Below, in pieces: positions 27,119-51,780 of a DNA stretch of 64,000 nt. The stretch's first letter is position 1, and each line of letters starts with the position of its first letter. Both the position numbers and the translations under genes were made by a program. Source of the DNA: an uncultured Acidimicrobiia bacterium (GTDB lineage: Bacteria > Actinomycetota > Acidimicrobiia > Spongiisociales > Spongiisociaceae); contig OY282370.1 of the NCBI GenBank assembly GCA_958295745.1, positions 2,702,548 to 2,766,547 on the forward strand. The letters are read 5' to 3'. The notes beneath the pieces were generated by a model. It searched no databases and was not told where the DNA came from. It worked only from the letters and a program-made list of their open reading frames with translations.

Positions 27119-27147
27119 TTGCGGGGGGGGGGTAGTTATTGTACAAT
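27119..27147 (+). promoter_or_regulatory. Promoter of array gene 1 with 10-G tract in the spacer
   Basis: -35-like TTGCGG (27119-27124) and -10 TACAAT (27142-27147) are separated by 17 bp. Ten G residues (27123-27132) start inside the -35-like box and fill half the spacer. This is the only one of the five with a 17-bp spacer. The sequence upstream of the -35 box (TTTTTGTGTTCTGGCCTGGGG) is conserved in all five copies. Confidence 0.65.
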
Positions 27148-27231
27148 AGCATCCCCCGGCATCCCCCGGTCTGGTGATACGTGCCTGGTCGAGGCTGTCG
27201 ATTCTTTGTTCAGAAAAGAAAGGTGTTGATC

Positions 27232-30867: not shown

Positions 30868-30901
30868 ATCGTTTACCGCAACCAACCAAACGCCAGGGGC
30901 G

Positions 30902-30927
30902 GGGGTCTCCACTTCGGTGGAGGCCCC
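30902..30927 (+). terminator. Hairpin terminator after array gene 1
   Basis: 11-bp stem GGGGTCTCCAC / GTGGAGGCCCC (one G-U pair) closed by a TTCG tetraloop, followed by TTCCTGGTTT. The same hairpin follows all five array genes. Confidence 0.85.
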
Positions 30928-30963
30928 TTCCTGGTTTCAGGCTCCGATCACCGACCGGCGGGA

Positions 30964-31062
30964 GGCTTTGATCATCGGGTGATCGATGGCGGCCTGGGTC
31001 AGCGTTTCCTCAGGATGCTGATCGAGACCCTCGAGGAGCCTTCCCTGTTCCTGGCGGGGTGA
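30964..31062 (+). pseudogene. Fragment of the E2 acyltransferase 3' end (scar 1)
   Basis: Nearly identical to 26853-26944, the last 33 codons of the E2 gene, including the stop codon and the bases after it. One base is missing at the fifth or sixth position (GCTTTGATC against GCTTTCGATC), so the frame is lost at once. It has no start or promoter of its own. Confidence 0.88.
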
Positions 31063-31206
31063 CCCGCCGCCATCGCAACGCAGCAACGTCTGATGCCGTG
31101 AAGTCGGGGGGGGGTCGATGGTGTCGGGGTCGGGTCCGTTTTTGGGTTGTTTTTGTGTTCTGGCCTGGGGTTTTGGTGTGTGCGGGTGGTGTTGGTCGAA
31201 GAAAGG

Positions 31207-31238
31207 TTGCGGGGGGGGGGGGTATTTATTGTTACAAT
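31207..31238 (+). promoter_or_regulatory. Promoter of array gene 2 with 12-G tract
   Basis: TTGCGG (31207-31212), twelve G (31211-31222), -10 TACAAT (31233-31238). Apparent spacer 20 bp, too long for good sigma-70-type contact if the boxes are as read. Confidence 0.6.
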
Positions 31239-31313
31239 GGGTTGCCCGGGCTGGCATGTGTGTGCTGGCCGGGGTTGATCGGTCTTGTTCAGGAAGGAAA
31301 GGGGTTCGGTCTG

Positions 31314-34300
31314 ATGGCTCTGGTTGGTGTACGGCGGTCGTGGTTGGCTGTGGTTGCTGTGTTGGGTTTGGTGGGTTCGTTGTTGGCTGTTGGGGTGGTT
31401 CCGGCGGCGGCGGTGGACGGCAAGGCGGATAACGAGGCGGTGTATTCGGCTTGTGTCGGTCCGGCGTTGGAGTCGTTGGGTTTGGTTGATGTTGTTGGGT
31501 CGTTTGCTGAGGATGCGGTGAATTGTTTGGGGCATTATGGGATCACTAAGGGTCGCACGGCGACTACGTATGATCCGGGTGCTCCGGTGTTGCGTTGGCA
31601 GATGGCGTTGTTCTTGACGCGGGCTGCTAGCCCGGCGGGTGTGCAGCTGTTGGCGGACCCTGCGGATGACTTCACGGACTTGGAGGGTGTTTCGGACGAG
31701 ATCCGTTCGGCGGTCAATCAGATGGTGGGGTTGGGGATCATGTCGGGTAGGAGCGGCGGTCGGTTCTCGCCGGATACGGCGGTGTCTCGGGCGGAGATGG
31801 CTTCGATGTTGGACGCGTTTTTGGTCAAGGCCCGGCCGGGTAAGGGAGCTTTCGGCGGCGAGGCGGGTGTGGATGAGTTGGGGGATGTTTCGCCTGATGC
31901 CACTGGGTTTACTGACATCGGGAGCGTGACGCGTGGTCAGTATTCGGCGATTGAGCGGATGTTCGAGTTGGGGGTTACTCGGGGGACGTCGGATAATCAG
32001 TTCTCTCCGGGGGGTTTGGTTACTAGGGCGCAGATGGCGGCGTTCATTACGCGGATGTTGGCGCATACGGTGGCTCGTCCGGCTGGGTTGACGATGCAGG
32101 CGAGTGCGTTGTCGGTTGCGGGGACTTCGGATAGTTTGGGGGATGTGGATTTGGTGGTGTCGTTGCGTGATTCGATTCATATGGCGATGGCGGATGAGTC
32201 GGTGGATGTGTTCTCGGCGGCGAACGCGGGGGATGCGTTCGGGTCTGATGGGCGTTGCTCTGTGGATGAGGTGTTGAGGTTGGGGGATGGTACGGGGGTG
32301 TGTGAGGTCGAGGTGTCTGATGGGCAGACGGACTCGGATGGGGATGTGGAGATCACGGGTCAGTTTGGTGCTTCGGCGACGGTGTGGGCGTGGGCTGGTG
32401 ATGTTGGTGATCGGTTCGATGTTGCTGATACGGTGTCGGCGTCGTTGGAGATCACGGTGACGAAGCCGGCTACGAAGTTGCGGATCACCGATGATATGGC
32501 TGTGAATGCGACGGCGGCGCAGTTTGGGGATCGGGTTACGTTCGTTGTTCAGGTGGTGGACGACGACGGGAATCCGGTGGCTACCAAGGACGTGTCGGTG
32601 ACGGTGGCGGCGAACACGACGGTTGCCAGCAACGCCGACGGTGTGGGTCCGCAGACGAGCGGCGCTACGAATACGCGTAAGACGGACGACTCGGGGCGGA
32701 TCGAGCTGTCGTACCGTCAGGCTGATCCTCGGACGTCGGGCAGCGATCATGGGGGTGATAGGGCCTGGCTGGATTTGGATATCAGCTTCCCAGCCGGCTA
32801 CAGCGGGGATTTGATGTTGGAGGACAAGACCACCCTGAAGAAGGCCGTCGAAGCTGACGGCGCCATGGTGGGGGACGCGGCGGTGGTCTGGCGCGACGGC
32901 ACGCCTGTCGCTACGACTTTGACGTTGGCTCAGGCTGTTGAGTATCACGAGGCGTCGGGTACGGGGAGCGGCGCGTCGAATACGGTTACGGCTACTTTGG
33001 TGGATCAGTACGGCGATCCGGTGTCCCGCCAGAGGGTGGAGTTCACTTCTGACGACGCCGACGGCATCGGCGCCAAGCCGGATCCGGATACTGCGGGAGC
33101 TCCGGCGGTGTTGGTGCGCAATGTGAATACTGCTACCAGCGAGGGGACGCGTGTGTTCAAGGATGCTGATGCCCTTTTGACGCGGACTACCAACCGGCGG
33201 GGTGTGGCCAGCCTTACCTACAACCGGGATTCGGCTGACAGCCGGATCGAAACCATCCTGGCCGAGGTCACGGTCGGTTCAGGTTCCTCTGCCAGAACGA
33301 TCCCGGCTGACCGTATCTATCACTACTGGGCGAACGAGCCGAGCGACGGCGATAGGATCGAGGGTCGTCTGATGGTGACCAACACCGACGACAACCAGCT
33401 GGTGATAGCAGGCGTCGGGGTGTCGCTGATCAAATACGACAGCAACGATCATCTTACCACTCCCGACGGTGCGGTTACTTTGTCCGGGTTCGAGACAGAC
33501 CTGAAAGACAACGCCAAGCACGTTACGGTGTCGAGGTATCAGGACACCTCCAAGGACGTCAGCCAGATCGCAACCGGCGGTGCTTGGGCGAGTTTGGACC
33601 ATCCGGGCGGTCAGGCCGCTCTCAATGCCGACCCCCGGTTCGGGCAATCCGTAGCCGCCGACAACGGGGTCATCGTCGTAGGCGCCGGCCGAGAAAACGT
33701 CGATCACGACGACGACCCGACGACGCCCAAGCATGCCACTGCCGGTCGGGTGTATGTGTACGAGAGCTTTGACGACACCAAACCCACCATCCTCCAGCTT
33801 CACGAAGATTTCTCGGCTGCGAACGCCAAGTTCGGATACGATGTGGACGTCTCCGTGACAGGGTCCGGCGCCACAAGGCTTACCACGATCGTGGTCGGCG
33901 CGCCTGGAATATGGGGCAATGCCGGAAGAGCTTTCGTATTCACCCATACGGGCCCTTGGGGCGACAACAACACCATCAAGACCGACGATGATAACAGTAC
34001 CAAGGATACTGCGTGGATGAACCAAACCGGTGACCCCGGTTTGGCCAGTATGGAGTTCGGCGCCCATGTTGCGGTCTCGGGTGACGGCAAGACGGTAGCG
34101 GTTGCTGCTCCTTACACGGTTGATGCGTCGAAGGGTAAGGCCATGGTGGTCATGTACCAGAGAGGCTCCGACGGATGGAGCAACGACGGAGGCCATACTG
34201 ACAACGGGATACTGCAAAGCTCCTACAGCTCCCCGTACTTCAACAGAGGGGGCAGAGGGTTGGCAATATCCGAGGATGGTTCTGTCGTCGCGGTCGGAGT

Positions 34301-34976
34301 GGGCTGGGCCACGAATCCGCTATGGAGTACCGTGGAGCAGTATGCAGGGAAGGTCGCGGTGTTTGTCAAGGGGGCTGGTGTCAGCTGGTACGGTGATCAC
34401 CGTGAAGACCCCAATGCTTTGCTGTCTCCCGCTGAGGGCAGCACTTTTCAGGGGGTAGCCAAGTATGTGGGTATGTCGGATGACGGGAACACCATCGTTG
34501 CTTCGGGCCACTTCCAGCACAATCACGCTGAGGGAAGGACAGGCGCCGCATACGTGTTCACCAAACCCAACACCAGCGATGGTTGGGGAGCGACACCTAG
34601 CACAACTGTCTCGGTGACGGAGTTGAAGAATCCTGCTGTGCTGTCCGCCGCCGGAGTCCAGCCCAGCGACGTGCTGGGCCAGTACGTGGCCATCAAGAGC
34701 GACGGATCCGAGGTAGCAGCCAGCCGCCACCACCGGCAGGAGGGCGACTCGCGGGGCTCGGTGCTTACCTACACCAAGCCTAAGGAGGGCGGCTGGGCGT
34801 CCACCACCAGCCCGGACAGCGAGTATCTGGGCGTCAACCCCGGCGATGGTCTGGGCTGGGCGACCACCTACGACCGGGCGGACGGCACCCTCTACTCGTC
34901 CCTCGCCCGCAACCGCTCGAACCCGATCGACGGCGGCTACTACAAGCAGCTGACCATCTTCCGTATCGACCGATAG
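31314..34976 (+). CDS. Array surface protein 2: SLH / Ig-like / FG-GAP propeller
   Basis: 1220 residues with the same layout as array protein 1: signal peptide, three SLH repeats, Ig-like/Big domains, FG-GAP blades. ATG 31314 follows GGAAAGGGG; the frame extends upstream only through non-coding sequence. It is unique among the paralogs in having SFPAGYSGDLMLEDK where others have TYSGTD or TYAGTD. The blades (RFGQSVAADNGVIVVGAG, KFGYDVDVSVTGSG, EFGAHVAVSGDGKTVAVA) diverge from other copies, while the last 75 residues (LGQYVAIKSDGSEVAAS...FRIDR) are conserved. The first half is rich in G/T-ending codons; the propeller half is rich in C-ending codons. Confidence 0.88.
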   Translation: MALVGVRRSWLAVVAVLGLVGSLLAVGVVPAAAVDGKADNEAVYSACVGPALESLGLVDVVGSFAEDAVNCLGHYGITKGRTATTYDPGAPVLRWQMALFLTRAASPAGVQLLADPADDFTDLEGVSDEIRSAVNQMVGLGIMSGRSGGRFSPDTAVSRAEMASMLDAFLVKARPGKGAFGGEAGVDELGDVSPDATGFTDIGSVTRGQYSAIERMFELGVTRGTSDNQFSPGGLVTRAQMAAFITRMLAHTVARPAGLTMQASALSVAGTSDSLGDVDLVVSLRDSIHMAMADESVDVFSAANAGDAFGSDGRCSVDEVLRLGDGTGVCEVEVSDGQTDSDGDVEITGQFGASATVWAWAGDVGDRFDVADTVSASLEITVTKPATKLRITDDMAVNATAAQFGDRVTFVVQVVDDDGNPVATKDVSVTVAANTTVASNADGVGPQTSGATNTRKTDDSGRIELSYRQADPRTSGSDHGGDRAWLDLDISFPAGYSGDLMLEDKTTLKKAVEADGAMVGDAAVVWRDGTPVATTLTLAQAVEYHEASGTGSGASNTVTATLVDQYGDPVSRQRVEFTSDDADGIGAKPDPDTAGAPAVLVRNVNTATSEGTRVFKDADALLTRTTNRRGVASLTYNRDSADSRIETILAEVTVGSGSSARTIPADRIYHYWANEPSDGDRIEGRLMVTNTDDNQLVIAGVGVSLIKYDSNDHLTTPDGAVTLSGFETDLKDNAKHVTVSRYQDTSKDVSQIATGGAWASLDHPGGQAALNADPRFGQSVAADNGVIVVGAGRENVDHDDDPTTPKHATAGRVYVYESFDDTKPTILQLHEDFSAANAKFGYDVDVSVTGSGATRLTTIVVGAPGIWGNAGRAFVFTHTGPWGDNNTIKTDDDNSTKDTAWMNQTGDPGLASMEFGAHVAVSGDGKTVAVAAPYTVDASKGKAMVVMYQRGSDGWSNDGGHTDNGILQSSYSSPYFNRGGRGLAISEDGSVVAVGVGWATNPLWSTVEQYAGKVAVFVKGAGVSWYGDHREDPNALLSPAEGSTFQGVAKYVGMSDDGNTIVASGHFQHNHAEGRTGAAYVFTKPNTSDGWGATPSTTVSVTELKNPAVLSAAGVQPSDVLGQYVAIKSDGSEVAASRHHRQEGDSRGSVLTYTKPKEGGWASTTSPDSEYLGVNPGDGLGWATTYDRADGTLYSSLARNRSNPIDGGYYKQLTIFRIDR

Positions 34977-35011
34977 ATCCTTTACCGCAACCAACCACAC
35001 ACGCCAGGGCG

Positions 35012-35037
35012 GGGGTCTCCACTTCGGTGGAGGCCCC
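35012..35037 (+). terminator. Hairpin terminator after array gene 2
   Basis: Same 11-bp stem and TTCG loop as the other copies. Confidence 0.85.
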
Positions 35038-35074
35038 TTCCTGGTTTCGAGGCCCGATCACCGACCTGCGGGAG

Positions 35075-35174
35075 GCTTTGATCATCGGGTGATCGATGGC
35101 GGCCTTTGGGTCAGCGTTTCCTCAGGATGCTGATCGAGACCCTCGAGGAGCCTTCCCTGTTCTTGGCGGGGTGA
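35075..35174 (+). pseudogene. Fragment of the E2 acyltransferase 3' end (scar 2)
   Basis: Shares with scar 1 the same one-base deletion and the same substitutions relative to the intact E2 gene (GAGACCCTCGAGGAGCCTTC), so the two scars come from one another or a common copy. It also has a one-base insertion (GGCCTTTGGG). Confidence 0.88.
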
Positions 35175-35333
35175 CCCACCCGCCATGGCAACACGGCTAC
35201 GTCTGATGCCGTGAAGTCGGGGGGGGGGGTCGATGGTTGCGGGTCGGAGGTGTCGGGTTGGGGGGTGGTGGGTTGTTTTTGTGTGCTGGCCTGGGGTTTT
35301 GGGGGTGTGGGGGTGGTGTTGGTCTGGATAAGG

Positions 35334-35363
35334 TTGCGGGGGGGGGGGAGTTATTGTTACAAT
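35334..35363 (+). promoter_or_regulatory. Promoter of array gene 3 with 11-G tract
   Basis: TTGCGG (35334-35339), eleven G (35338-35348), -10 TACAAT (35358-35363). Apparent spacer 18 bp. The T that follows the G run in the other copies is absent here. Confidence 0.62.
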
Positions 35364-35442
35364 GGGTTGCCCGGGCTGGTGTGTGCTGGGCCGGGTTTTG
35401 TTCGATTTTTGTTCGGGAAGGACAAGGAAGGAGTTCGGTCTG

Positions 35443-38400
35443 ATGGCTCTGGTTGGTATGCGGCGGTCGTGGTTGGCTGTGGTTGCTGTGTTGGGTTTGG
35501 TAGGTTCGTTGCTGGCTGTTGGGGTGGTTCCGGCGGCGGCGGCGGACGGTGAGGCGGATAACGGGGCGGCGTATTCGGCTTGTGTCGGTCCGGCGTTGGA
35601 GTCGTTGGGTTTGGTTGATGTTGTGGGGTCGTTCGCCGAGGATGCGGTGAATTGTTTGGGGCATTATGGGATTACTAGGGGTCGTACGGCGACTACGTAT
35701 GATCCGGGTGCTCCGGTGTTGCGTTGGCAGATGGCGTTGTTCTTGACGCGGGCGGCGGGTCCGGCGGGTGTGTCGTTGTTGGCGGACCCTGCCGATGACT
35801 TCACGGACTTGGGGGCGGCGTCGGACGAGACGCGTTCGGCGATCAATCAGATGGCCGGGTTGGAGATCATGCCTGGTACGGGCAGCGTCCGGTTCTCGCC
35901 GGATACGGCGGTGTCTCGGGCGCAGATGGCTGAGATGTTGGATGCGTTTTTGGGTAAGGCCCGGCGGGGTGCGGGCGCTTTTGGCGGCGAGGACAAGTTG
36001 TCGGATGTGGATCCTGATGACACCGTGTTTACCGATATCGGTGGGGTGACGCGTGGTCAGTACTCGGCGATTCGGCGGATGTTCGAGGTGGGGGTTACTC
36101 GGGGGACGTCGGATAATCAGTTCTCTCCGGGGGGGTTGGTTACTCGGGCGCAGATGGCGGCGTTCATTACTCGGATGTTGGCGCATACGGTGGCTCGTCC
36201 GGCTGGGTTGACGATGCAGGCGAATAAGTTGTCGGTTGCCGGCACCGCGGACAGTCCGTCGCAGGATGTGGATTTGGTGGTGTCGTTGCGGGATTCGGCG
36301 CATATGGGGATGCCGGATGCTTCGGTGGATTTGTTCAAGTCCACGAATCCGGGGGATGCGTTCGGGTCTGATGGGCGTTGTTCCAATGATGAGGTGGAGT
36401 TGGTGGGGAATGGTGGGGGGTTGTGTGAGATCGCGTCTTCGGATGAGACTACGAACTCGGATGGGGATGTGGAGATTGCGGGCGGCGACGTGTCGTTTGG
36501 TGCTTCGGCGACGGTGTGGGCGTGGGCTGGTGATGTTGGTGATCGGTTCGATGCTGATGATACGGTGTCGGCGTCGTTGGAGATCACGGTTACGAAGCCG
36601 GCTACGAAGCTGCGGATCACCGATGATATGGCTGTGAATGCGACGGCGGTGCAGTTCGGTGACCGGGTTACGTTTGTTGTTCAGGTGGTGGACGACGACG
36701 GGAATCCGGTGGCTACCAAGGACGTGTCGGTGACGGTGGCGGCGAACACGACGGTTGCCAGCGGTGCCGACGGTGCGGGTGAGCAGACGAGTGGCGTTAC
36801 GAATACTCATAAGACGGACGACTCGGGGAAGATCGAGCTGTCGTACCGTCAGACCGATCCTCGGACGTCGGGCAGCGATCATGGGGGTGATAGGGCCTGG
36901 CTGGATTTGGATATCACCTACTCCGGGACTGATTATGAGTTGGAGGACAAGACCACCCTGAAGAAGGCCAAAGACCCGGACGACGCCATGGTGGAGAACG
37001 CGGCGGTGGTCTGGCGCGACGGCACGCCTGTCGCTACGACTTTGACGTTGGCTCAGGCGGTTTCTTTCCATGAGGCGGACCAGTCCGGTTCGGGCGCGTC
37101 GAATACGGTTACGGCTACTTTGGTGGATCAGTACGGTGATCCGGTGTCCCGCCAGAGGGTGGAGTTCACTTCTGACGACGTCGACGGCATCGGCGCCAAG
37201 GCGGCTGCTGCGGGGGCTCCGGCGGTGTTGGTGTTCGACATTGCCAGCGTAGGTACCCGGCTGTTGACGGGTGATGCCGCCTTGACGCGGACTACCAACC
37301 GGCGGGGTGTGGCCAGCCTTACCTACAATCGGGATTCGTCCGACGGCGGGATCGAAACCATCCAGGCCAAGGTCAAGATCGGTTCAGGCGCTACTGCCAA
37401 AACGATCGAGGCTGAGCGGGCCTATCACTACTGGGCGGAGGAGCCCGGGGTGGGAGATACAGCTTCGGGTCGTCTGGTGGCTTCTGACACCGACAACAAC
37501 CAGCTGGTGCTGGCAGGTACCGGGGTGTCGTTGGTCAAGTACGACAGCAATGATCATTTCACCACTCCCGACGGTGCGGCTACTTTGTCCGCCTTTGAGA
37601 CAGACCTGAGGGACAACGCCAAGCATGCTTCGGTGTCGAACTATCAGACCGCCTCCAAGAACGTCTCCCGGTTCACGACCGCCGGCGCTTGGGCGAGTTT
37701 GGACCATCCGGGCGGTATGGCCGCTATCGAGGCCGATTCCCGGTTCGGCCAGGCGTTCGCCGTAGACGACGAGGTCATCGTCGTGGGCGCCAGCCATGAA
37801 GCTGTCGACCATGATGCCGACCCCAGCGACAGCACGCCGGCGGTAAGCCTGAGTTTGGCCGGCATGGTGTATGTCTATCCCGATGGCATCACCGAAGCCG
37901 ACAGCAGGGTCGAACTGAAGTCGCCCAGCCCTATGGCGAACGGCTATTTCGGGTATGATGTGGACATCTCCGGGAACACCATCGTGGTCGGCGAACCCGG
38001 AGCGAACAAGGCTTACATCTACGTCGAAGGAGACAGTGGATGGCCCACTTCGCCTACCGCCACGTTGACCGGTGTAAAAGGCGACCATGACGACGACCCC
38101 GCCACCGCCGACATCGCAGACGGCGTCAAAGACTTCGGTAGGGCGGTGGTTATCTCCGGCGACGGGAAAACTATTGCGGTTGCGTCCCCGGGAGAAAGCA
38201 GGGGGCCGACGCCTAACCAGTGGACGATCAATTTTGAGGGGCGGCTGTTCGTGTATCCGAAGCCCGGCACCGGCGGTGCCGACCCTTGGGTTGACCAAAT
38301 GTCGAATGCGTCTGCCCTCAAGGAGCTGGCGCTTCCTGTAAATACTTGGAACATCGATGCTATAAGGTTTAGGACCTGGTGGTATGAGAGGTCGTTGGCC

Positions 38401-39057
38401 ATCTCGAATGATGGTTCGGTGATCCTGCACGGCCATAATGACTTGAAGCATCATGACTACATACCAGGAGGGTTGGCGCATCCCGGTGCAATACTGGTAC
38501 ATGTCAGGTCCGGTGCTACCTGGTCCGACTCCAATACACCGTCCGTGTTGAGGGCGTCCGAACGCAGCAGAAACCAGGCTGTGGGTAAGTATGTGGCCAT
38601 TTCGGGGGACGGCAATGTGATCGTGGCCTCGGGTCACTACAGAGCCGGAGAGCGCAAGCCGGGTGAGACATTGGTGTTTACCAAGCCCGCCGGCGGATGG
38701 GCCAACAGCACCGAGCCGGCTGTCCTGACCGTTGAGGGGGGCCGAACCTCCGACGTGTTGGGCCAGTACATTGCCATCAAGAGCGACGGTTCCGAGATAG
38801 CGGCCAGCCGCCACTACCGGCAGGAGGGCGACTGGCGGGGTTCGGTGGTTACCTACACCAAGCCTTCTTCGGGCGGCTGGGTGAGCGACGACAGTCCGGA
38901 CAACGAGTACCTGGGCATCGCCCCCCGCGACAAGCTGGGCTGGCAGACCACCTACGACAAGTCGGACGGTGATCTCTACTCCGGCATCCGCCGCAGGACC
39001 GACACCGACGAAGACAACTACTACTACCAGAACACGATCTTCCGCATCGACCGATAG
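35443..39057 (+). CDS. Array surface protein 3: SLH / Ig-like / FG-GAP propeller
   Basis: 1204 residues, same domain order as the other array members. ATG 35443 follows GGAAGGAG. Its N-terminal Ig-like insert (SVDLFKSTNPGDAFGSDG) resembles protein 1, while the middle (TYSGTDYELEDKTTLKKAKD, DDAMVENAAVVWRDGTPVA) is identical to protein 5. Blades: RFGQAFAVDDEVIVVGAS, YFGYDVDISGNTIVVGEP, DFGRAVVISGDGKTIAVA and others. Ends in LGQYIAIKSDGSEIAAS...FRIDR. Surface location by signal peptide and SLH repeats; ligand unknown. Confidence 0.88.
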   Translation: MALVGMRRSWLAVVAVLGLVGSLLAVGVVPAAAADGEADNGAAYSACVGPALESLGLVDVVGSFAEDAVNCLGHYGITRGRTATTYDPGAPVLRWQMALFLTRAAGPAGVSLLADPADDFTDLGAASDETRSAINQMAGLEIMPGTGSVRFSPDTAVSRAQMAEMLDAFLGKARRGAGAFGGEDKLSDVDPDDTVFTDIGGVTRGQYSAIRRMFEVGVTRGTSDNQFSPGGLVTRAQMAAFITRMLAHTVARPAGLTMQANKLSVAGTADSPSQDVDLVVSLRDSAHMGMPDASVDLFKSTNPGDAFGSDGRCSNDEVELVGNGGGLCEIASSDETTNSDGDVEIAGGDVSFGASATVWAWAGDVGDRFDADDTVSASLEITVTKPATKLRITDDMAVNATAVQFGDRVTFVVQVVDDDGNPVATKDVSVTVAANTTVASGADGAGEQTSGVTNTHKTDDSGKIELSYRQTDPRTSGSDHGGDRAWLDLDITYSGTDYELEDKTTLKKAKDPDDAMVENAAVVWRDGTPVATTLTLAQAVSFHEADQSGSGASNTVTATLVDQYGDPVSRQRVEFTSDDVDGIGAKAAAAGAPAVLVFDIASVGTRLLTGDAALTRTTNRRGVASLTYNRDSSDGGIETIQAKVKIGSGATAKTIEAERAYHYWAEEPGVGDTASGRLVASDTDNNQLVLAGTGVSLVKYDSNDHFTTPDGAATLSAFETDLRDNAKHASVSNYQTASKNVSRFTTAGAWASLDHPGGMAAIEADSRFGQAFAVDDEVIVVGASHEAVDHDADPSDSTPAVSLSLAGMVYVYPDGITEADSRVELKSPSPMANGYFGYDVDISGNTIVVGEPGANKAYIYVEGDSGWPTSPTATLTGVKGDHDDDPATADIADGVKDFGRAVVISGDGKTIAVASPGESRGPTPNQWTINFEGRLFVYPKPGTGGADPWVDQMSNASALKELALPVNTWNIDAIRFRTWWYERSLAISNDGSVILHGHNDLKHHDYIPGGLAHPGAILVHVRSGATWSDSNTPSVLRASERSRNQAVGKYVAISGDGNVIVASGHYRAGERKPGETLVFTKPAGGWANSTEPAVLTVEGGRTSDVLGQYIAIKSDGSEIAASRHYRQEGDWRGSVVTYTKPSSGGWVSDDSPDNEYLGIAPRDKLGWQTTYDKSDGDLYSGIRRRTDTDEDNYYYQNTIFRIDR

Positions 39058-39094
39058 ATCCTTTACCGCAACCAACCAACCACACGCCAGGGCG

Positions 39095-39120
39095 GGGGTC
39101 TCCACTTCGGTGGAGGCCCC
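39095..39120 (+). terminator. Hairpin terminator after array gene 3
   Basis: Same 11-bp stem with TTCG loop. Confidence 0.85.
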
Positions 39121-39140
39121 TTCCTGGTTTCGAGGCCCGA

Positions 39141-39244
39141 TCACCGACCGGCGGGTGGCTTCCCTTCCCCGGAGGGCCTCGAAAGGGGTTTTCGTAAACG
39201 ACGGAAGCGAGCAGTCTGTCCTCGGGGATGTCGTAGTGGGTGCG
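39141..39244 (-). pseudogene. Fragment of the GNAT acetyltransferase 3' end
   Basis: Matches 47298-47403, the last 34 codons and stop of the intact GNAT gene (shared CTTCCCCGGAGGG and CTCGGGGATGTCGTAGT). Substitutions are scattered. It has no 5' end. Confidence 0.85.
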
Positions 39245-39440
39245 TGATCCGCCGCCATCGCAACAGAAGCAAGGTCTGATGCCGTGAAGTAATGCCGTGA
39301 AATCGGGGGGGGGTGATGGTGTCCGGGTCGGGTATCGGGTTTCGGTGTCTGGTTTGAGGTCGATTCGGGGGGGTGGTGGGGTGTTTTTGTGCTCTGGCCT
39401 GGGGTTTTGGTGTGTGCAGGTGGTGTTGGTCGAGGGAAGG

Positions 39441-39471
39441 TTGCGGGGGGGGGGGTAGTTATTGTTACAAT
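39441..39471 (+). promoter_or_regulatory. Promoter of array gene 4 with 11-G tract
   Basis: TTGCGG (39441-39446), eleven G (39445-39455), -10 TACAAT (39466-39471). Apparent spacer 19 bp. Confidence 0.62.
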
Positions 39472-39551
39472 ATAGATTTGCCCTGGTTTGGTGTGTGTCG
39501 GGCCGGGGTTGTTGATTTTGTTCGGGAAGGACAAGGAAAGAGGTCGGTCTG

Positions 39552-42500
39552 ATGGCTCTGGTTGGTGCGCGGCGGTCGTGGTTAGCTGTTGTTGCTGTGT
39601 TGGGTTTGGTGGGTTCGTTGTTGGCTGTCGGGGTGGTTCCGGCGGCGGCGAAGGATGGTACGGCGGATAATGAGGCGGTGTACTCGGCTTGTGTCGGTCC
39701 GGCGTTGGAGTCGTTGGGTTTGGTTGATGTTGTGGGGTCGTTTGCCGAGGATGCGGTGAATTGTTTGGGGCATTATGGGATTACTAGGGGTCGTACGGCT
39801 ACTACGTATGATCCGGGTGCTCCGGTGTTGCGTTGGCAGATGGCGTTGTTCTTGACGCGGGCTGCGGGCCCGGCGGGTGTGCAGCTGTTGGCGGTGCCTG
39901 ACGATGTGTTCACGGATTTGGGGGATGCGTCGGATGAGACGCGTTCGGCGATCAATCAGATGTCGGCGTTGGGGATCATGCCTGGTAGGAGCGGCGAGCG
40001 GTTCTCGCCGGATACGGCGGTGTCCCGGGCGAGTATGGCTGAGATGTTGGATGCCTTCTTGGGTAAGGCCCGGCCGGGTGTGGGCGCTTTTGGCGGCCTG
40101 GCGAATGTGGATGAGTTGTCGGATGTTTCGCCTGATGACACGGTGTTCGGGGACATCGAGGGGGTGGCGCGTGGTCAGTATTCGGCGATTCGCCGGATGT
40201 TCGAGTTGGGAGTTACTCGGGGGACGTCGGATAATCAGTTCTCTCCGGGGGGTTTGGTTACTCGGGCGCAGATGGCGGCGTTCATTACGCGGATGTTGGC
40301 GCATACGGTGGCTCGTCCGGCGGGGTTGACGATGCAGGCGAGTGCGTTGTCGGTGGCGGGCACCGCAGCGAGTCCGGAGGATGTGGATTTGGTGGTGTCG
40401 GTGCGCGACTCGGCGCATATGGCGATGCCGGATGAGTCGGTGGATGTGTTCTCGGCCGAGAACGCGGGGGATGCGTTCGGGTCTGACGGGCGTTGCTCCA
40501 ATGACGAGGTGTCGAGGTTGGGGGATGGTACGGGGGTGTGTGAGATCGAGGTGTCTGATGGGCAGACTAACTCGGATGGGGATGTAGAGATCACGGGTCA
40601 GTTTGGTGCTTCGGCGACGGTGTGGGCGTGGGCTGGTGATGTTGGTGATCGGTTCGATGCTGATGATACGGTGTCGGCGTCGTTGGAGATCACGGTTACG
40701 AAGCCGGCTACCAAGCTGCGGATCACCGATGATATGGCTGTGAATGCGACGGCGGCGAAGTTCGGTGACCGGGTTACGTTTGTTATCCAGGTGGTGGACG
40801 ACGACGGGAATCCGGTGGCTACCAAGGACGTGTCGGTGAGCGTGTCGGCGATGACGTGGGTTGACGACGGCGCTAGTGATGCGGATCCGAGTGGCAGCGG
40901 CGCTTCGGGTAGTCATAAGACGGACGATTCGGGGAGGATCGAGCTGTCGTACCGTCAGGCTGATCCTCGGACGTCGGGCAGCGATCATGGGGGTGATAAG
41001 GCCTGGCTGGACCTGGACATCACCTACTCCGGGACTGATTTGATGTTGGAGGACAAGACCACCCTGAAGAAGGCCGTCGAAGCTGACGGTGCTGCCGAGG
41101 GGGACGCGGCGGTGCTCTGGCTCGACACCACGGCTAAGGCTAAGACTCTGACGTTGGCTCAGGCGGTTTCTTTCCATGAGGCGTCGGGTACGGGGAGCGG
41201 TGCGTCGAACACGGTTACGGCTACTTTGGTCGATCAGTACGGCGATCCGGTGTCCCGCCAGAAGGTGGAGTTCACTTCTGACGACGTCGACGGCATCGGC
41301 GCCGAGGCAGGCGATGAAGAGGGAGCTCCCGCAGCGTTGGTGTTCGACATTGCCGGCAGCAGCGAGACGCGTCTGTTCGAGGATGCTGATGCCCTTTTGA
41401 CGCGGACTACCAACCGGCGGGGTGTGGCCAGCCTTACCTACAACCGAGATTCGGCCGACAGCGGGATCGAAACCATCCTGGCTTCGGTCACGGTGGGTTC
41501 AGGTGACTCTGCCGAAACGATCGAGGCTGAGCGGGCCTATCATTACTGGGCGGAGGAGCCCGGGGTGGGGGAGACGGCCCAGGGCCGTCTGGTGGCTTCT
41601 GACACCGACAACAACCAGCTGGTGCTGGCAGGCGCCGGGGTGTCGTTGGTCAAGTACGACAGCAACGATCATTTCACTACCTCCGACGGTGCGTCTACTT
41701 TGTCCGCCTTCGAGACAGACCTGAGGGACAACGCCAAGCATGCTTCGGTGTCGAACTATCAGACCGCCTCCAAGAACGTCAGCCTGTTCACGACCGGCGG
41801 TGCCTGGACCAGGTTCGGTTATGCGGAGACGGCCTCCGGCCGCACGAACGCGGACGGCGTCCCCGTCGCTTACGGAGAGTCGCTTGCGGCGGACGGCGGC
41901 ACGGTGGTGGCGGGCGCCCCCTGGGAAGCCGTTGATCATGACGACGACGACGAAACCGCCGACTTGATCAAGGCCGGCAAGGTGTATGTCTTCGACGGCG
42001 TTGACACTTCCGCCAACCCCGAGCCGCAGGTGTTGCAGGCGCCCATGGCCGCGGCTGCGGACAACGGTTTCTTCGGAGAGATGGTGGAACTGGCGGGTAA
42101 CACGCTGGTGGTGGGCGCGCCCGCCTGCTGGAGCTGGGCGGCCTGCGGCAAGCCGGCCCATGACCGCACGAACACGACCGGGAATGTGTTCATCTACACC
42201 CGGGATTCCGCCGCCGCTGCCTTCACTTTGGACGCCACTTTGACGAACCCGTCCAACGCCCACAGGCTCGGTTCGGGTGTGGGGATATCCGCCGACGAGG
42301 AAACGGTGGCCGCCTATCAGCCTTACGGCAAGGTGCTGGTGTACCAGAAGCCGTCCGGCGGGTGGGCCGACGCCAGCACTCCGACGGCTACTTTGACGGA
42401 TGGCTCTACCAGCACCCTCGGGAGTGGCGGCAAGAGCATCGCCTTGTCCCGGGACGGGTCGGTGCTGGTGGGCGAAGCCTTCTCCCACGACCAGGCCACC

Positions 42501-43112
42501 CCCGCCTTGAGAGATATTGGTAGAGCGGTGGTGTTCGAGAGAGGGGGAGCTGCGTGGGCCAATGCCTCCACCGCGACGGCTATTCTGAGCGCCCCTACCC
42601 CCATGTTGCTGCAGCGGGTGGGCAAGTACGTGGCGGTCTCCGGCGACGGCGATGTCATTGCCATCTCGGGCCATTTCCGCGTCAATCAAGGCCGGCCGGG
42701 CGAGGTGTACGTGTTCACCAAACCTGCGACCGGCTGGGAGACCAGCACTGAACCGGCGGTGTTGAAGGCCGAGGGCGGACGGAAGTCCGATAATCTGGGT
42801 CAATATCTGGACATCGACGACGCGGGCACGCTGGTGGCCGCCAGCCGCCACCACCGGCAGGAGGGCGACTGGCGCGGTTCGGTGGTGGTGTACCGCAAGC
42901 CGGCCACCGGTTGGGAGAGCACCAGCACCGTCGACGAGGAATACCTGGGGGCCGCTCCGGGCGACAGGCTGGGCTGGCAGGCCTCCTTCGACCGCTCCGA
43001 CAGCACGTACATCTACGCCGGTCTCCGCAAAGGCCCGGACGTCTGGAACAGCGATGTGGACCTACGGACATACCCGGAGATGACGGTGTTCCGAATCGAA
43101 CGCATCAAATGA
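39552..43112 (+). CDS. Array surface protein 4: SLH / Ig-like / FG-GAP propeller
   Basis: 1186 residues. ATG 39552 is 15 bp after a GGAAAGAGG ribosome-binding stretch. Signal peptide, three SLH repeats (VLRWQMALFLTRAAGPAGV, VSRASMAEMLDAF, VTRAQMAAFITRML), Ig-like/Big domains and FG-GAP blades. One blade region carries a Cys-rich insert absent from paralogs (GAPACWSWAACGKPAHDRT). Its C-terminus is FRIERIK rather than FRIDR; 32 bp after the stop the DNA reads ATAGACCGATAG, a remnant of the ATCGACCGATAG that ends copies 2, 3 and 5. The ending was therefore rewritten by insertion or recombination. Confidence 0.87.
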   Translation: MALVGARRSWLAVVAVLGLVGSLLAVGVVPAAAKDGTADNEAVYSACVGPALESLGLVDVVGSFAEDAVNCLGHYGITRGRTATTYDPGAPVLRWQMALFLTRAAGPAGVQLLAVPDDVFTDLGDASDETRSAINQMSALGIMPGRSGERFSPDTAVSRASMAEMLDAFLGKARPGVGAFGGLANVDELSDVSPDDTVFGDIEGVARGQYSAIRRMFELGVTRGTSDNQFSPGGLVTRAQMAAFITRMLAHTVARPAGLTMQASALSVAGTAASPEDVDLVVSVRDSAHMAMPDESVDVFSAENAGDAFGSDGRCSNDEVSRLGDGTGVCEIEVSDGQTNSDGDVEITGQFGASATVWAWAGDVGDRFDADDTVSASLEITVTKPATKLRITDDMAVNATAAKFGDRVTFVIQVVDDDGNPVATKDVSVSVSAMTWVDDGASDADPSGSGASGSHKTDDSGRIELSYRQADPRTSGSDHGGDKAWLDLDITYSGTDLMLEDKTTLKKAVEADGAAEGDAAVLWLDTTAKAKTLTLAQAVSFHEASGTGSGASNTVTATLVDQYGDPVSRQKVEFTSDDVDGIGAEAGDEEGAPAALVFDIAGSSETRLFEDADALLTRTTNRRGVASLTYNRDSADSGIETILASVTVGSGDSAETIEAERAYHYWAEEPGVGETAQGRLVASDTDNNQLVLAGAGVSLVKYDSNDHFTTSDGASTLSAFETDLRDNAKHASVSNYQTASKNVSLFTTGGAWTRFGYAETASGRTNADGVPVAYGESLAADGGTVVAGAPWEAVDHDDDDETADLIKAGKVYVFDGVDTSANPEPQVLQAPMAAAADNGFFGEMVELAGNTLVVGAPACWSWAACGKPAHDRTNTTGNVFIYTRDSAAAAFTLDATLTNPSNAHRLGSGVGISADEETVAAYQPYGKVLVYQKPSGGWADASTPTATLTDGSTSTLGSGGKSIALSRDGSVLVGEAFSHDQATPALRDIGRAVVFERGGAAWANASTATAILSAPTPMLLQRVGKYVAVSGDGDVIAISGHFRVNQGRPGEVYVFTKPATGWETSTEPAVLKAEGGRKSDNLGQYLDIDDAGTLVAASRHHRQEGDWRGSVVVYRKPATGWESTSTVDEEYLGAAPGDRLGWQASFDRSDSTYIYAGLRKGPDVWNSDVDLRTYPEMTVFRIERIK

Positions 43113-43190
43113 CCGCCGCCGAGAGCGGTCCCGGCCGGGTGATAGACCGATAGAAATCGTTTTACCGCAACCAACCACACGCCAGGGCGG

Positions 43191-43216
43191 GGGGTCTCCA
43201 CTTCGGTGGAGGCCCC
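43191..43216 (+). terminator. Hairpin terminator after array gene 4
   Basis: Same 11-bp stem with TTCG loop. Confidence 0.85.
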
Positions 43217-43236
43217 TTCCTGGTTTCAGGCTCCGA

Positions 43237-43269
43237 TCACCGACCGGCGGGGGGCTTGCCTTCCCTGGA
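43237..43269 (-). pseudogene. Short fragment of the GNAT acetyltransferase 3' end
   Basis: About 33 bp matching the last codons of the GNAT gene (CCGACCGGCGGGGG..TTGCCTTCCC), cut off and joined to the sequence that normally follows the E2 stop codon. Confidence 0.7.
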
Positions 43270-43428
43270 GTTGACCCACCCGCCATCGCAACGTAAGCAA
43301 GGTCTGATGCTGTAACTCGGGGGGTTCGATGGTTGCGGGTCGGATGTGTCGGGTTTGGGGGTGGTGGGTTGTTTTTGTGTGCTGGCCTGGGGTTTTGGTG
43401 TGTGCGGGTGGTGTTGGGCGAGGATAGG

Positions 43429-43460
43429 TTGCGGGGGGGGGGGGTAGTTATTGTTATAAT
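43429..43460 (+). promoter_or_regulatory. Promoter of array gene 5 with 12-G tract and consensus -10
   Basis: TTGCGG (43429-43434), twelve G (43433-43444), -10 TATAAT (43455-43460), a perfect consensus where the other copies have TACAAT. Apparent spacer 20 bp. Confidence 0.65.
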
Positions 43461-43533
43461 GGGTTGCCCGGCCTGGTGCGTGTGCTGGCCGGGTTTGTTC
43501 GATTGTTGTTCGAAAGGAAAGGGGTTCGGTCTG

Positions 43534-46500
43534 ATGGCTCTGGTGTGTGTGCGGCGGTCGTGGTTGGCTGTTGTTGCTGTGTTGGGTTTGGTGGGTTCGT
43601 TGTTGGCTGTTGGGGTGGTTCCGGCGGCGGCGGTGGACGGTGAGGCGGACAACGAGGCGGTGTATTCGGCTTGTGTCGGTCCGGCGTTGGAGTCGTTGGG
43701 TTTGGTTGATGTTGTGGGGTCGTTTGCTGAGGACGCGGTGAATTGTTTGGGGCATTATGGGATCACTAAGGGTCGCACGGCGACTACGTATGATCCGGGT
43801 GCTCCGGTGTTGCGGTGGCAGATGGCGTTATTCTTGACGAGGGCTACGGGTCCGGCGGGTGTGTCGTTGTTGGCGGACCCTGCTGATGTGTTCACGGACT
43901 TGGAGGGTGTTTCGGACGAGACGCGTTCGGCGATCAATCAGATGGCCGGGTTGGGGATCATGTCGGGTAGGAGCGGCGGTCGGTTCTCGCCGGATACGGC
44001 GGTGTCTCGGGCGGAGATGGCTTCGATGTTGGACGCGTTTTTGGTCAAGGCCCGGCCGGGTAAGGGCGCTTTCGGCGGCGAGGCGGGTGTGGATGAGTTG
44101 GGGGATGTTACGCCTGATGCCACGGGGTTCAACGACATCGGGAGCGTGACGCGTGGTCAGTATTCGGCGATTGAGCGGATGTTCGAGTTGGGGGTTACTC
44201 GGGGGACGTCGGATAATCAGTTCTCTCCGGGGGGTTTGGTTACTCGGGCGCAGATGGCGGCGTTCATTACTCGGATGTTGGCGCATACGGTGGCTCGTCC
44301 GGCTGGGTTGACGATGCAGGCGAGTGCGTTGTCGGTTGCGGGGACCGCAGATAGTTTGGGGGATGTGGATTTGGTGGTGTCGTTGCGTGATTCGATTCAT
44401 ATGGCGATGGCGGATGAGTCGGTGGATGTGTTCAGTTCCTCGAATGCGGGGGATGCGTTCGGGTCTGATGGGCGTTGCTCTGTGGATGAGGTGTTGAGGT
44501 TGGGGGATGGTACGGGGGTGTGTGAGGTCGAGGTGTCTGATGGGCAGACGGACTCGGATGGGGATGTGGAGATCACGGGTCAGTTTGGTGCTTCGGCGAC
44601 GGTGTGGGCGTGGGCTGGTGATGTTGGTGATCGGTTCGATGCTGATGATACGGTGTGGGCGTCGTTGGAGATCACGGTTACGAAGCCGGCTACGAAGCTG
44701 CGGATCACCGATGATATGGCTGTGAATGCGACGGCGGTGCAGTTCGGTGACCGGGTTACGTTTGTTGTTCAGGTGGTGGACGACGACGGGAATCCGGTGG
44801 CTACCAAGGACGTGTCGGTGACTGTGGCGGCGAACACGACGGTTGCCAGCGGCGCCGCCGGTGCGGGTGAGCAGACGAGTGGCGTTACGAATACTCATAA
44901 GACGGACGACTCGGGGCGGATCGAGCTGTCGTACCGTCAGACCGATCCTCGGACGTCGGGCAGCGATCATGGGGGTGATAGGGCCTGGCTGGATTTGGAT
45001 ATCACCTACTCCGGGACTGATTATGAGTTGGAGGACAAGACCACGCTGAAGAAGGCCAAAGACCCGGACGACGCCATGGTGGAGAACGCGGCGGTGGTCT
45101 GGCGCGACGGCACGCCTGTCGCTACGACTTTGACGTTGGCCCAGGCGGTTTCTTTCCATGAGGCGTCGGGGTCGGGCAGCGGCGCGTCGAACACGGTTAC
45201 GGCTACTTTGGTGGATCAGTACGGCGATCCAGTGGCCCGCCAGAAGGTGGAGTTCACTTCCGACGACGCCGACGGCATCGGCGCCAAGGCGGCTGCTGCG
45301 GGGGCTCCGGCGGTGTTGGTGTTCGACACGTCCAGCGGGGGGACGCGTCTGTTCGGGGATGCTGATGCCCTTTTGACGCGGACTACCAACCGGCGGGGTG
45401 TGGCCAGCCTTACCTACAATCGGGATTCGGCTGACGGCGGGATCGAAACCATCCTGGCCGAGGTCAAGATCGGTTCAGGCGCTACTGCCAAAACGATCGA
45501 GGCTGAGCGGGCCTATCACTACTGGGCGGAGGAGCCCGGGGTGGGGGATTCGGCTTCGGGTCGTCTGATGGCTTCTGACACTGACAACAACCTGCTGGTG
45601 CTGACAGGCGTCGGGGTGTGGTTGGTCAAGTACGACAGCAACGATCATTTCACCACTCCCGACGGTGCGGCTACTTTGTCCGCCTTTGAGACAGACCTGA
45701 GGGACAACGCCAAGCACGCTTCGGTGTCGAACTATCAGACCGCCTCCAAGAACGTCTCCCGGTTCACAACCGGCCACGCTTGGGCGACTTTGGACAACCC
45801 CGGCGGTCAGGCCGCTATCGAGGCCGATTCCCGGTTCGGTCAGGCGTTCGCCGTCGACAACGGGGTCATCGTCGTAGGCGCCAGCTACGAAGCTATCGAC
45901 CATGACGACGACGACAACCCCAGCACGCCGACGGTAAGCCTAAGCAGGGCCGGTGCGGTGTATGTGTATGAGAGCATCACCGACACCAAGCCCACCAAGC
46001 TGGTGTCGGCTACTCCCGTGGCGAGTGCTTATTTCGGGTGGGATGTGGACATCTCCGGGGACACCATCGTGGTCGGGGCGCCGGGGCCGATGAATTTGCC
46101 TGAGGCCGATAGGGGGCCGGGCAACGCTTACATATTCACCAAACCCTCAGGCGGTTGGGGAGACGACAACACGATAGATACCGACGCCGATGATGTCCAC
46201 ACTTTGGCTGGTCGCCCCGGCGCTTGGGATAGCTCTCCCGTCGGCCGCTCAGGCAGCAAGTTAGGTATGGGGGTCGCCGTCTCCGGGGATGAGGAGACGG
46301 TGGCGGTTGTCGCCGCGCACAACGATGGGCCGGGTTGGCAGCGTGGCCGGGTCTACGTGTTCGAGAAGCCCTCCGGCGGTTGGGCCGACATTGCCGATGT
46401 TGCCGATGCTACGAATGGGGCGGATGCGGAGCTGACCAACAACTATCGTTATCTCCAGTATTATAATGATAGGTCGGTGGCGATCTCCGAGAATGGTTCC

Positions 46501-47217
46501 GTGATCGTGGCCGGTTCCGAAGCCTGGCGATCTCCGGGTCCCGGCCCTGGAGCGGTGTTGGTGTACGTCAAGCCCGGCGCTGCTTGGGTTGACGGCGTAC
46601 AGACCGCACATTTGAGCGCTCCCATAAAGCAGGGCGAGACCCACAACATACGTCAGGCGATGGGTAAATATGTGGCGGTCTCGTCGGATGGCCTCACGGT
46701 GGTCACTTCGGGGCACTACGCCCACACAGATACCGACGATCACGGTGTTACCTATGTGTTCTCCGTGGACGCCCTGACCGGCTGGGCGGCTCTCCCTGCC
46801 CCCTCAAGACTTAACCTCGAAACCGCGGGCGACTTGACTGATATGATCTCCTCACCCCAAACCAGTGAGCCTACGGCTACGTTGTCCGTTGCCGGAGCCT
46901 GGTACGGGGACGTGGTGGGCCAGTACATTGCCATCAAGAGCGACGGTTCCGAGATAGCGGCCAGCCGCCACTTCCGACAGGATGGCGACTGGCGGGGTTC
47001 GGTGGTTACCTACACCAAGCTTAAGGGGGCTTCGGCCGTATGGGCGGACGACTCCAGTCCGGACAACGAGTACCTGGGTGTCGCTCCCAGCAACCGTCTG
47101 GGTTGGCAGGTCACCTACGACAAGTCGAACGGTGATCTCTTCTCTGGCATGCGCCAAGAGATCCCGATCGGCGACGATGACTACAAGCTGATGACCATCT
47201 TCCGTATCGACCGATAG
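43534..47217 (+). CDS. Array surface protein 5: SLH / Ig-like / FG-GAP propeller
   Basis: 1227 residues, same layout. ATG 43534 follows GAAAGGAAAGGGG. It is a mosaic: residues of the SLH and first Ig region (SVDEVLRLGDGTGVCEVEVS, VSRAEMASMLDAFLVKARPG) match protein 2, while the next segment (TYSGTDYELEDKTTLKKAKD) matches protein 3. FG-GAP blades include RFGQAFAVDNGVIVVGAS, YFGWDVDISGDTIVVGAP and KLGMGVAVSGDEETVAVV. The last 75 residues are the conserved LGQ/VGQYIAIKSDGSEIAAS...FRIDR ending. Confidence 0.88.
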   Translation: MALVCVRRSWLAVVAVLGLVGSLLAVGVVPAAAVDGEADNEAVYSACVGPALESLGLVDVVGSFAEDAVNCLGHYGITKGRTATTYDPGAPVLRWQMALFLTRATGPAGVSLLADPADVFTDLEGVSDETRSAINQMAGLGIMSGRSGGRFSPDTAVSRAEMASMLDAFLVKARPGKGAFGGEAGVDELGDVTPDATGFNDIGSVTRGQYSAIERMFELGVTRGTSDNQFSPGGLVTRAQMAAFITRMLAHTVARPAGLTMQASALSVAGTADSLGDVDLVVSLRDSIHMAMADESVDVFSSSNAGDAFGSDGRCSVDEVLRLGDGTGVCEVEVSDGQTDSDGDVEITGQFGASATVWAWAGDVGDRFDADDTVWASLEITVTKPATKLRITDDMAVNATAVQFGDRVTFVVQVVDDDGNPVATKDVSVTVAANTTVASGAAGAGEQTSGVTNTHKTDDSGRIELSYRQTDPRTSGSDHGGDRAWLDLDITYSGTDYELEDKTTLKKAKDPDDAMVENAAVVWRDGTPVATTLTLAQAVSFHEASGSGSGASNTVTATLVDQYGDPVARQKVEFTSDDADGIGAKAAAAGAPAVLVFDTSSGGTRLFGDADALLTRTTNRRGVASLTYNRDSADGGIETILAEVKIGSGATAKTIEAERAYHYWAEEPGVGDSASGRLMASDTDNNLLVLTGVGVWLVKYDSNDHFTTPDGAATLSAFETDLRDNAKHASVSNYQTASKNVSRFTTGHAWATLDNPGGQAAIEADSRFGQAFAVDNGVIVVGASYEAIDHDDDDNPSTPTVSLSRAGAVYVYESITDTKPTKLVSATPVASAYFGWDVDISGDTIVVGAPGPMNLPEADRGPGNAYIFTKPSGGWGDDNTIDTDADDVHTLAGRPGAWDSSPVGRSGSKLGMGVAVSGDEETVAVVAAHNDGPGWQRGRVYVFEKPSGGWADIADVADATNGADAELTNNYRYLQYYNDRSVAISENGSVIVAGSEAWRSPGPGPGAVLVYVKPGAAWVDGVQTAHLSAPIKQGETHNIRQAMGKYVAVSSDGLTVVTSGHYAHTDTDDHGVTYVFSVDALTGWAALPAPSRLNLETAGDLTDMISSPQTSEPTATLSVAGAWYGDVVGQYIAIKSDGSEIAASRHFRQDGDWRGSVVTYTKLKGASAVWADDSSPDNEYLGVAPSNRLGWQVTYDKSNGDLFSGMRQEIPIGDDDYKLMTIFRIDR

Positions 47218-47250
47218 ATCCTTTACCGCAACCAACCACACGCCAGGGCG

Positions 47251-47276
47251 GGGGTCTCCACTTCGGTGGAGGCCCC
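47251..47276 (+). terminator. Hairpin terminator after array gene 5
   Basis: Same 11-bp stem with TTCG loop; it also faces the convergent GNAT gene 22 bp away. Confidence 0.85.
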
Positions 47277-47297
47277 TTCCTGGTTTTCAGGCTCCGA

Positions 47298-50175: not shown

Positions 50176-50194
50176 CCGGGGAACGGTTATCCGA

Positions 50195-51538: not shown

Positions 51539-51540
51539 CC

Positions 51541-51780
51541 TTACCGTGTTCTGGCATGTCCCCGTGGGATGATTCGGGGATGGTTGCCCGTCACGGCGGG
51601 TAGGGCTGTCGGGCCCTGTCAGATAGATGACTTGGGGCGTGGTGCCGCCCGCCGTGTTGGGTGTGGTTGACCTCTAACAGGAACATGCTCCCAGGTTCTG
51701 GGGCTTTGTAAGGTGGTTGACGGCAGCTGCGCCCGTGGGCGGGTGACCTGTGGAAAAGCTGATTTCGTTGGAAGGAGACA
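51541..51780 (+). ncRNA. Candidate IS110 bridge RNA region
   Basis: Left end of the element, upstream of the transposase, where IS110-group elements encode their bridge RNA. An 8-bp stem ACGGCGGG (51593-51600) / CCCGCCGT (51648-51655) encloses a 47-nt internal loop with a smaller AGGGC/GCCCT hairpin; further hairpins are CCCCG...CGGGG (51560-51579 area) and CGCCC-GT-GGGCG near 51735. Exact ends not determined. Confidence 0.45.

Follow-up and report, generated by a model that had tools for sequence, protein, structure and literature searches.

Mosaic SLH-Ig-propeller genes and exchange between distant copies in the genome of an uncultured acidimicrobiial bacterium

In the genome of an uncultured acidimicrobiial bacterium, five tandem genes (g1 to g5), arranged head to tail at positions 27223-47217 of a 64-kb window (the whole stretch of DNA that was analysed, 64,000 nucleotides), encode proteins of ~1190-1230 residues that resemble different sister copies along different parts of their length. 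Have these copies exchanged sequence and, if so, by which route and with which partners? An initial annotation of the span 31314-47217, which runs exactly from the start of g2 to the stop of g5 and leaves g1 outside, had proposed recombination between copies and, more specifically, gene conversion. Both proposals are supported here, and short non-reciprocal exchange is favoured over unequal crossing-over. The array belongs to a family of at least nine copies (five in the array and four dispersed), and exchange is not confined to the array, as dispersed loci take part. We consider it very probable that the front halves of these genes, which encode proteins with S-layer homology (SLH) domains, Ig-like domains, and a propeller, have been patched by homologous recombination between copies genome-wide; this judgement leaves aside phase variation, which is assessed separately.

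Mosaic structure and tests for recombination

The 3.3-Mb genome, assembled in nine contigs and representing the sole species of its genus, has all copies on one 3.0-Mb contig (C1). Four full-length copies lie apart from the array, at 116 kb (d116), 128 kb (d128), 676 kb (d676), and 2093 kb (d2093), and the reading frames of all nine are intact; more distant family members are found at 1311 kb and 1179 kb. When the nine genes are aligned by codon, the identity of g5 to g2 is 95-98% in codons 160-400, and its identity to g3 is 98-99% in codons 400-560; g5 follows g2 up to ~residue 350-370 and then g3, with the break located between 44581 and 44641 (Table 1). The shared strings from which this switch had been read are all where they were claimed to be (SVDEVLRLGDGTGVCEVEVS in proteins 2 and 5; TYSGTDYELEDKTTLKKAKD and DDAMVENAAVVWRDG in proteins 3 and 5), and the switch was borne out by permutation, both at all sites (p = 5e-5, the floor of the test) and at third codon positions only (p = 0.001 and 0.0002). 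For g4, also described initially as a mosaic, the strings are present (VEADGA in proteins 2 and 4; SFHEA in proteins 3, 4, and 5), but the switch between g2 and g3 is weaker by itself (p = 0.0002 and 0.006 at all sites; p = 0.013 and 0.64 at third positions). The clear exchange partner of g4 is d676 (the two are 97% identical in alignment codons 400-466 and share 140 nt without a difference), which escaped the first reading because this dispersed copy lay outside the DNA then visible.

Mosaics occur among the dispersed copies as well. Located ~0.95-2.1 Mb from the array, d676 has four parts: codons 0-400 are 97% identical to g5 and d2093, codons 400-466 are 97% identical to g4, codons 466-580 are 100% identical to g2, and codons 580-800 are 90% identical to g1. 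The copy d2093 resembles g2, g5, and d676 at mostly 93-99% as far as ~codon 406 and at ~65% thereafter, and a best-partner table assigns the N-terminal part of g1 to d128 and d116 and its later part to d676. Identical runs of 100-324 nt link genes that are 0.6-2.1 Mb apart. The mosaic blocks show graded divergence (90-100% identity) and thus point to events of different age. Synonymous divergence (dS) varies accordingly within single pairs, from 0.00 in codons 480-580 to 0.92 in codons 690-800 for g2 and d676, and from 0.05 to 1.0 and more further along for d676 and d2093. Mean dS is ~0.2 over codons 0-380 and ~1.2 past codon 800, in the propeller; anchor and stalk are therefore homogenised, and propellers are not. 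The initial annotation, whose claim of conversion is supported, had missed this genome-wide exchange and its fading before the propeller, as well as the poly-G promoter-like blocks described below.

A single whole-length topology fails for these genes. A breakpoint search under the Bayesian information criterion (BIC), with a separate tree per segment, accepted codon 390 for the five array genes (gain 178) and codons 406 and 557 for all nine (gains 935 and 259). Because a BIC gain may also reflect rate shifts, topology was tested directly by the approximately unbiased (AU) test. With five genes, segment A rejects the trees of segment B (p = 3e-4) and segment C (p = 1e-7), and segment B rejects the segment-A and whole-length trees (p = 0.005); with nine genes, including the four dispersed copies, every cross-segment tree is rejected (differences in log-likelihood of 69-417). 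For nine genes, the maximal triplet statistic is 8.73, and none of 100 alignments simulated along the best single tree under variable rates exceeded 2.81; for five genes, it is 4.45, as against a maximum of 2.49 in 200 recombination-free simulations. The pairwise homoplasy index (PHI) for nine genes gives z = -52. The signal persists at silent sites, as judged by third-position triplet tests and by dS per segment; a strict all-three-synonymous triplet test of the five genes has too few sites to be strong, and third positions were used instead. Codons 390 and 406 correspond to g4 residues 383 and 399, where the first Ig-like domain gives way to the second (near 383-388), and codon 557 corresponds to g4 residue 537, early in the third Ig-like domain; with two points, a tie between breakpoints and domain borders is suggestive only.

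Table 1. Features of the SLH-Ig-propeller array, in window positions
Feature	Position	Strand	Remarks
Candidate promoter of g1	27119..27147	+	TTGC + G10 + TAGTTATTG TACAAT, spacer 17
g1	27223..30867	+	Open reading frame (ORF); Pfam SLH and FG-GAP_2; three SLH, Ig-like domains, FG-GAP propeller; best-partner table
Hairpin after g1	30892..30935	+	Conserved, long; downstream alignment
Candidate promoter of g2	31207..31238	+	G12, spacer 20
g2	31314..34976	+	ORF, Pfam
g2 stretch identical to d676	32676..33000	+	324 nt; d676 at G000:C1:~676-679 kb
Hairpin after g2	35003..35045	+	
Candidate promoter of g3	35334..35363	+	G11, spacer 18
g3	35443..39057	+	ORF, Pfam
g3 block 98-99% identical to g5	36568..37051	+	Alignment codons 382-556
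Hairpin after g3	39086..39128	+	
Candidate promoter of g4	39441..39471	+	G11, spacer 19
g4	39552..43112	+	ORF, Pfam; AlphaFold2 model
g4 stretch identical to d676	40788..40926	+	140 nt
Hairpin after g4	43181..43224	+	
Candidate promoter of g5	43429..43460	+	G12, TATAAT, spacer 20
g5 (mosaic)	43534..47217	+	ORF, Pfam
g5 block following g2 (also d676, d2093)	43534..44581	+	103:27 g2:g3-type informative sites, alignment codons 0-380
g5 block following g3	44641..45139	+	3:35 g2:g3-type sites, codons 380-560
g5 mixed stretch	45139-45475		25:23 g2:g3-type sites, codons 560-690
g5 second block following g3	45475..45715	+	6:43 g2:g3-type sites, codons 690-800
Hairpin after g5	47242..47284	+	

Routes of exchange

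Ectopic conversion by the general recombination machinery fits these data because the patches are short, multiple, and interior, the loci are distant, and the flanks are unrelated. Most simply, RecA-type gene conversion, in tracts some 100 to 1200 bases long, would have copied anchor-and-stalk sequence repeatedly from locus to locus, within the array and between loci up to ~2 Mb apart. Transfer was probably non-reciprocal and within one genome, and RecA is the likely agent. Exchange would fade ahead of the propeller because the copies there are too different to recombine readily, the outcome being a common scaffold with diverse tips, a diversity that selection may favour. Two points weigh against this reading: for the five genes, segment C alone does not reject the segment-A and whole-length trees (p about 0.09), and the evidence comes from one genome of a one-species genus.

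The alternative that survives best is that alleles came in from conspecific cells by transformation or conjugation, followed by homologous replacement, with orthologs in other strains as donors. One genome alone cannot separate import from intracellular conversion, and the Neisseria opa repertoire has been shaped by recombination, gene conversion, and gene gain and loss (PMC13183285). However, the chromosome itself offers the simpler source, many tracts having donor-like sequence elsewhere on it with identity as high as 100%, and we regard import as unlikely, if deserving of consideration.

Reciprocal unequal crossing-over in the tandem array, which could have made chimeric genes without conversion (e.g. 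g5, with its g2-like front and g3-like back), is less probable still. The array is indeed tandem and head to tail, with repeated promoters and hairpins, and for the five genes alone BIC accepts one break only, a strong one near codon 390. Against this stand the several switches inside g5 (g2, g3, mixed, g3) and the dispersed mosaics d676 and d2093, which share interior patches while their outer flanks are unrelated. It is this patchwork inside single genes, together with identities of 100-324 nt between distant genes, that leads us to prefer conversion; crossing-over inside the array may have had some part in determining copy number.

We attach little probability to an assembly or polishing artefact, such as the partial collapse of similar copies or the correction of one copy by another. 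Closely similar repeats do challenge assemblers, the assembly has nine contigs, and the named relatives are metagenome-assembled, but a single 3.0-Mb contig bears all copies, their blocks diverge in graded fashion, and nine frames are intact. Finally, conserved motifs are constrained, and all nine genes share two codon runs without a difference. Short of an alignment error, however, these results already refute uneven constraint, or convergent selection acting along one gene tree, as the source of the apparent mosaicism: triplet tests gauge changes of partner rather than of rate and stay significant at third positions, no simulation that allowed for rate variation approached the observed values, and dS inside one pair ranges from 0.0 to ~1.0.

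Proteins, relatives, and known systems

The encoded proteins comprise a signal peptide, three SLH domains, ~three Ig-like domains, and an FG-GAP (integrin-alpha-like) beta-propeller. Pfam SLH and, in the C-terminal region, FG-GAP_2 score above cut-off in all five array proteins; the leader and the number of SLH units were judged by eye. An AlphaFold2 model of the g4 protein (17 sequences; mean predicted local distance difference test score 77) places a leader first, then predicted SLH helical units to ~residue 255, putative Ig-like beta domains at ~258-383, 388-500, and 521-668, a small beta region, and repeated strands over residues 777-1186 (to the end), modelled with variable confidence. 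By sequence profile, the SLH anchor region aligns with the solved Bacillus Sap and SbsB chains (E 1e-9 to 7e-9), and the C-terminal region aligns with integrin alpha-4 (E 1e-5) and alpha-5 (E 2e-3). The anchor is like that of Sap and SbsB, the remainder here consisting of Ig-like domains and a propeller; the match to the integrin-alpha propeller is partial and at the level of repeats only, with nothing pointing to integrin-like function. As part of the reading held very probable above, the proteins would be secreted and anchored to the S-layer, with an SLH anchor, an Ig-like stalk, and a beta-propeller tip. A Foldseek comparison of the whole g4 model, a many-domain chain, with the PDB gave low TM-scores only (macroglobulins and WD propellers) and was not used. 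Positive selection on the propellers is not claimed: dN/dS is ~0.55-0.65, with near-saturated dS and an uncertain alignment.

Two more SLH proteins are encoded near the array (window 5055-7946 and 50141-51670), one with RCC1 repeats and one with a VanW domain, and open frames of 5055, 9515, and 10646 codons near 262 kb, 1064 kb, and 1221 kb of C1, with SLH-like matches, represent giant surface proteins. An IS110-family transposase gene (L108:7262-8494) adjoins d116 and is a possible aid to dispersal of the family, the dispersed copies of which have unrelated flanks outside the promoter block and hairpin.

A single-protein scan of public genomes found no close relatives; an alignment-based scan found 41, the named ones being Acidimicrobiia or unclassified metagenome-assembled genomes, many of which, by our reading of isolate labels, appear to come from sponge metagenomes. 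The homologous proteins sampled from 14 other genomes of the same family are mostly ~690-820 residues long. Among relatives, paralogs within a genome are 29-61% identical and cross-species orthologs reach 97%; the nine copies here have their closest paralog in the same genome at 83-95% identity, and nothing outside exceeds 47%. Copies within this genome are therefore more alike than between-species orthologs, the reverse of what most relatives show, although recent duplication alone would give the same result. Because paralogs in relatives are diverged and those here alike, both expansion and homogenisation characterise this lineage. One practical caution is that end-to-end gene trees of these proteins are not meaningful.

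Multi-copy surface-protein families are known elsewhere. The sap homologs of Campylobacter fetus share a conserved 5' part and differ downstream, and most are silent, promoterless cassettes clustered at one locus with an invertible promoter. Eight S-layer gene copies are predicted in two complete C. fetus genomes, with recombinants such as sapAB (PMC4943207); the present family is alike in its multiple copies per genome and its recombinants, but its copies are dispersed, and seven of nine have a poly-G promoter-like block of their own. The opa genes of Neisseria are dispersed surface-protein copies subject to recombination and gene conversion, each with a simple-repeat switch (PMC13183285). 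Like opa, the family described here is a mosaic, recombining, multi-locus surface family with a repeat (here a candidate switch); unlike the Opa proteins, which are outer-membrane proteins with the repeat in the signal-sequence part of the coding sequence, its products are SLH-anchored multidomain chains, and its tract, of putative switching function, lies in a promoter-like spacer. No homology to opa or sap was found in the family searches, which were the only test of it. Ectopic gene conversion is a known process, and here it is the probable mechanism in an uncultivated acidimicrobiial lineage. The open-licence papers searched included none on gene conversion in S-layer homology proteins and none joining Acidimicrobiia, sponge, and S-layer; the parts of the system are known, and their combination and lineage were not found in that literature.

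Poly-G tracts and candidate phase variation

A conserved block, TTGC-G(n)-TAGTTATTGT-TATAAT-like, lies upstream of g1-g5, d676, and d2093, i.e. seven of the nine copies, with 12 Gs in d676, 11 in d2093, and array tract lengths as listed in Table 1, where the spacer is the distance from TTGCGG to the -10-like element. The tract is broken upstream of d128, and none is present upstream of d116. Second tracts of G9-11 occur at 31106, 35219, and 39305. All eight homopolymer runs of at least 8 in the window lie upstream of g1-g5; it is their location and not their number that is striking, because a first-order Markov model expects ~five runs of at least 9 scattered over the window. A loose form of the block was found in none of 14 related genomes.

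Promoters of the Neisseria porA type have a homopolymer G run between -35 and -10 elements. The arrangement here is similar, with the candidate elements 17-20 nt apart, but the -35-like element is poor (TTGCGG), and the tract differences known (10-12) are those from copy to copy. Downstream of g1-g5, the same hairpin is found (RNA fold z between -2.5 and -3.7), and these conserved hairpins are likely terminators. Each copy may thus form its own transcription unit, and whether in seven of the nine a G10-12 promoter spacer tunes expression by slipped-strand mispairing is, on the sequence evidence, close to an even bet. Two observations lower confidence in such switching: a general sigma-70 promoter scan calls none of the poly-G blocks, because TTGCGG falls below its threshold, and G-tract lengths in the assembly may be off. 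Were the blocks to switch, recombination would supply variants, and phase variation would choose which are shown.

G runs of at least 10 are not peculiar to this family: of the 33 on the 3.0-Mb contig, eight lie upstream of its members; these eight share ancestry by duplication and so are not independent. All 33 are one-directional per contig half (19 on the minus strand below 1.26 Mb and 14 on the plus strand above 1.49 Mb), the G-run strand presumably being the leading strand. Further runs directly precede genes for large secreted or SLH proteins (LRR-SLH, RCC1-SLH, and Calx-beta) or fall within restriction and defence genes. A type ISP/IIG restriction gene (L153, G000:C1:256000-260500; L130) is interrupted by G10, with its halves (profile 9-513 and 554-1391) in different frames on either side; it may be a phase-variable restriction system caught in its off state, or the interruption may be an assembly error. 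Two PDC-M33A-like defence genes have G11 in their 5' parts (L155, G000:C1:152500-157500; L156, G000:C1:1494000-1499000), one being frameshifted at the tract and the other open through it. A type IIG restriction-methylase frame (L154, G000:C1:2278000-2284500) begins right at G11, without the first part of the family profile, and a 213-codon frame upstream of that G11 has no family match. The pattern resembles slipped-strand contingency loci, and switching is plausible, with the caveat that homopolymer errors in the assembly could mimic frameshifts at G tracts.

These elements may combine into two layers of surface variation in a member of a sponge-associated acidimicrobiial family, a proposal that we advance tentatively and rate somewhat below even. 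Poly-G switching of separate promoters would pick which SLH-Ig-propeller proteins are displayed, conversion would keep anchors and stalks interchangeable and propellers diverse, and the same poly-G mechanism would switch restriction and defence genes, such that surface and phage defence co-vary in the population. Ectopic conversion of surface-protein families is documented best in pathogens, where host antibodies explain it; the present case comes from an uncultivated bacterial family with named members largely from apparent sponge metagenomes, a setting that lacks antibodies. Should the poly-G promoters switch, it would become testable whether symbiont surface variation answers to phages, to sponge phagocytes, or to neighbours.

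On a further contig of 136 kb (C2), G runs of at least 10 are dense, often follow T or A, and lie nearly all on one strand, unlike those of the main contig; C2 is perhaps a different replicon or contamination.

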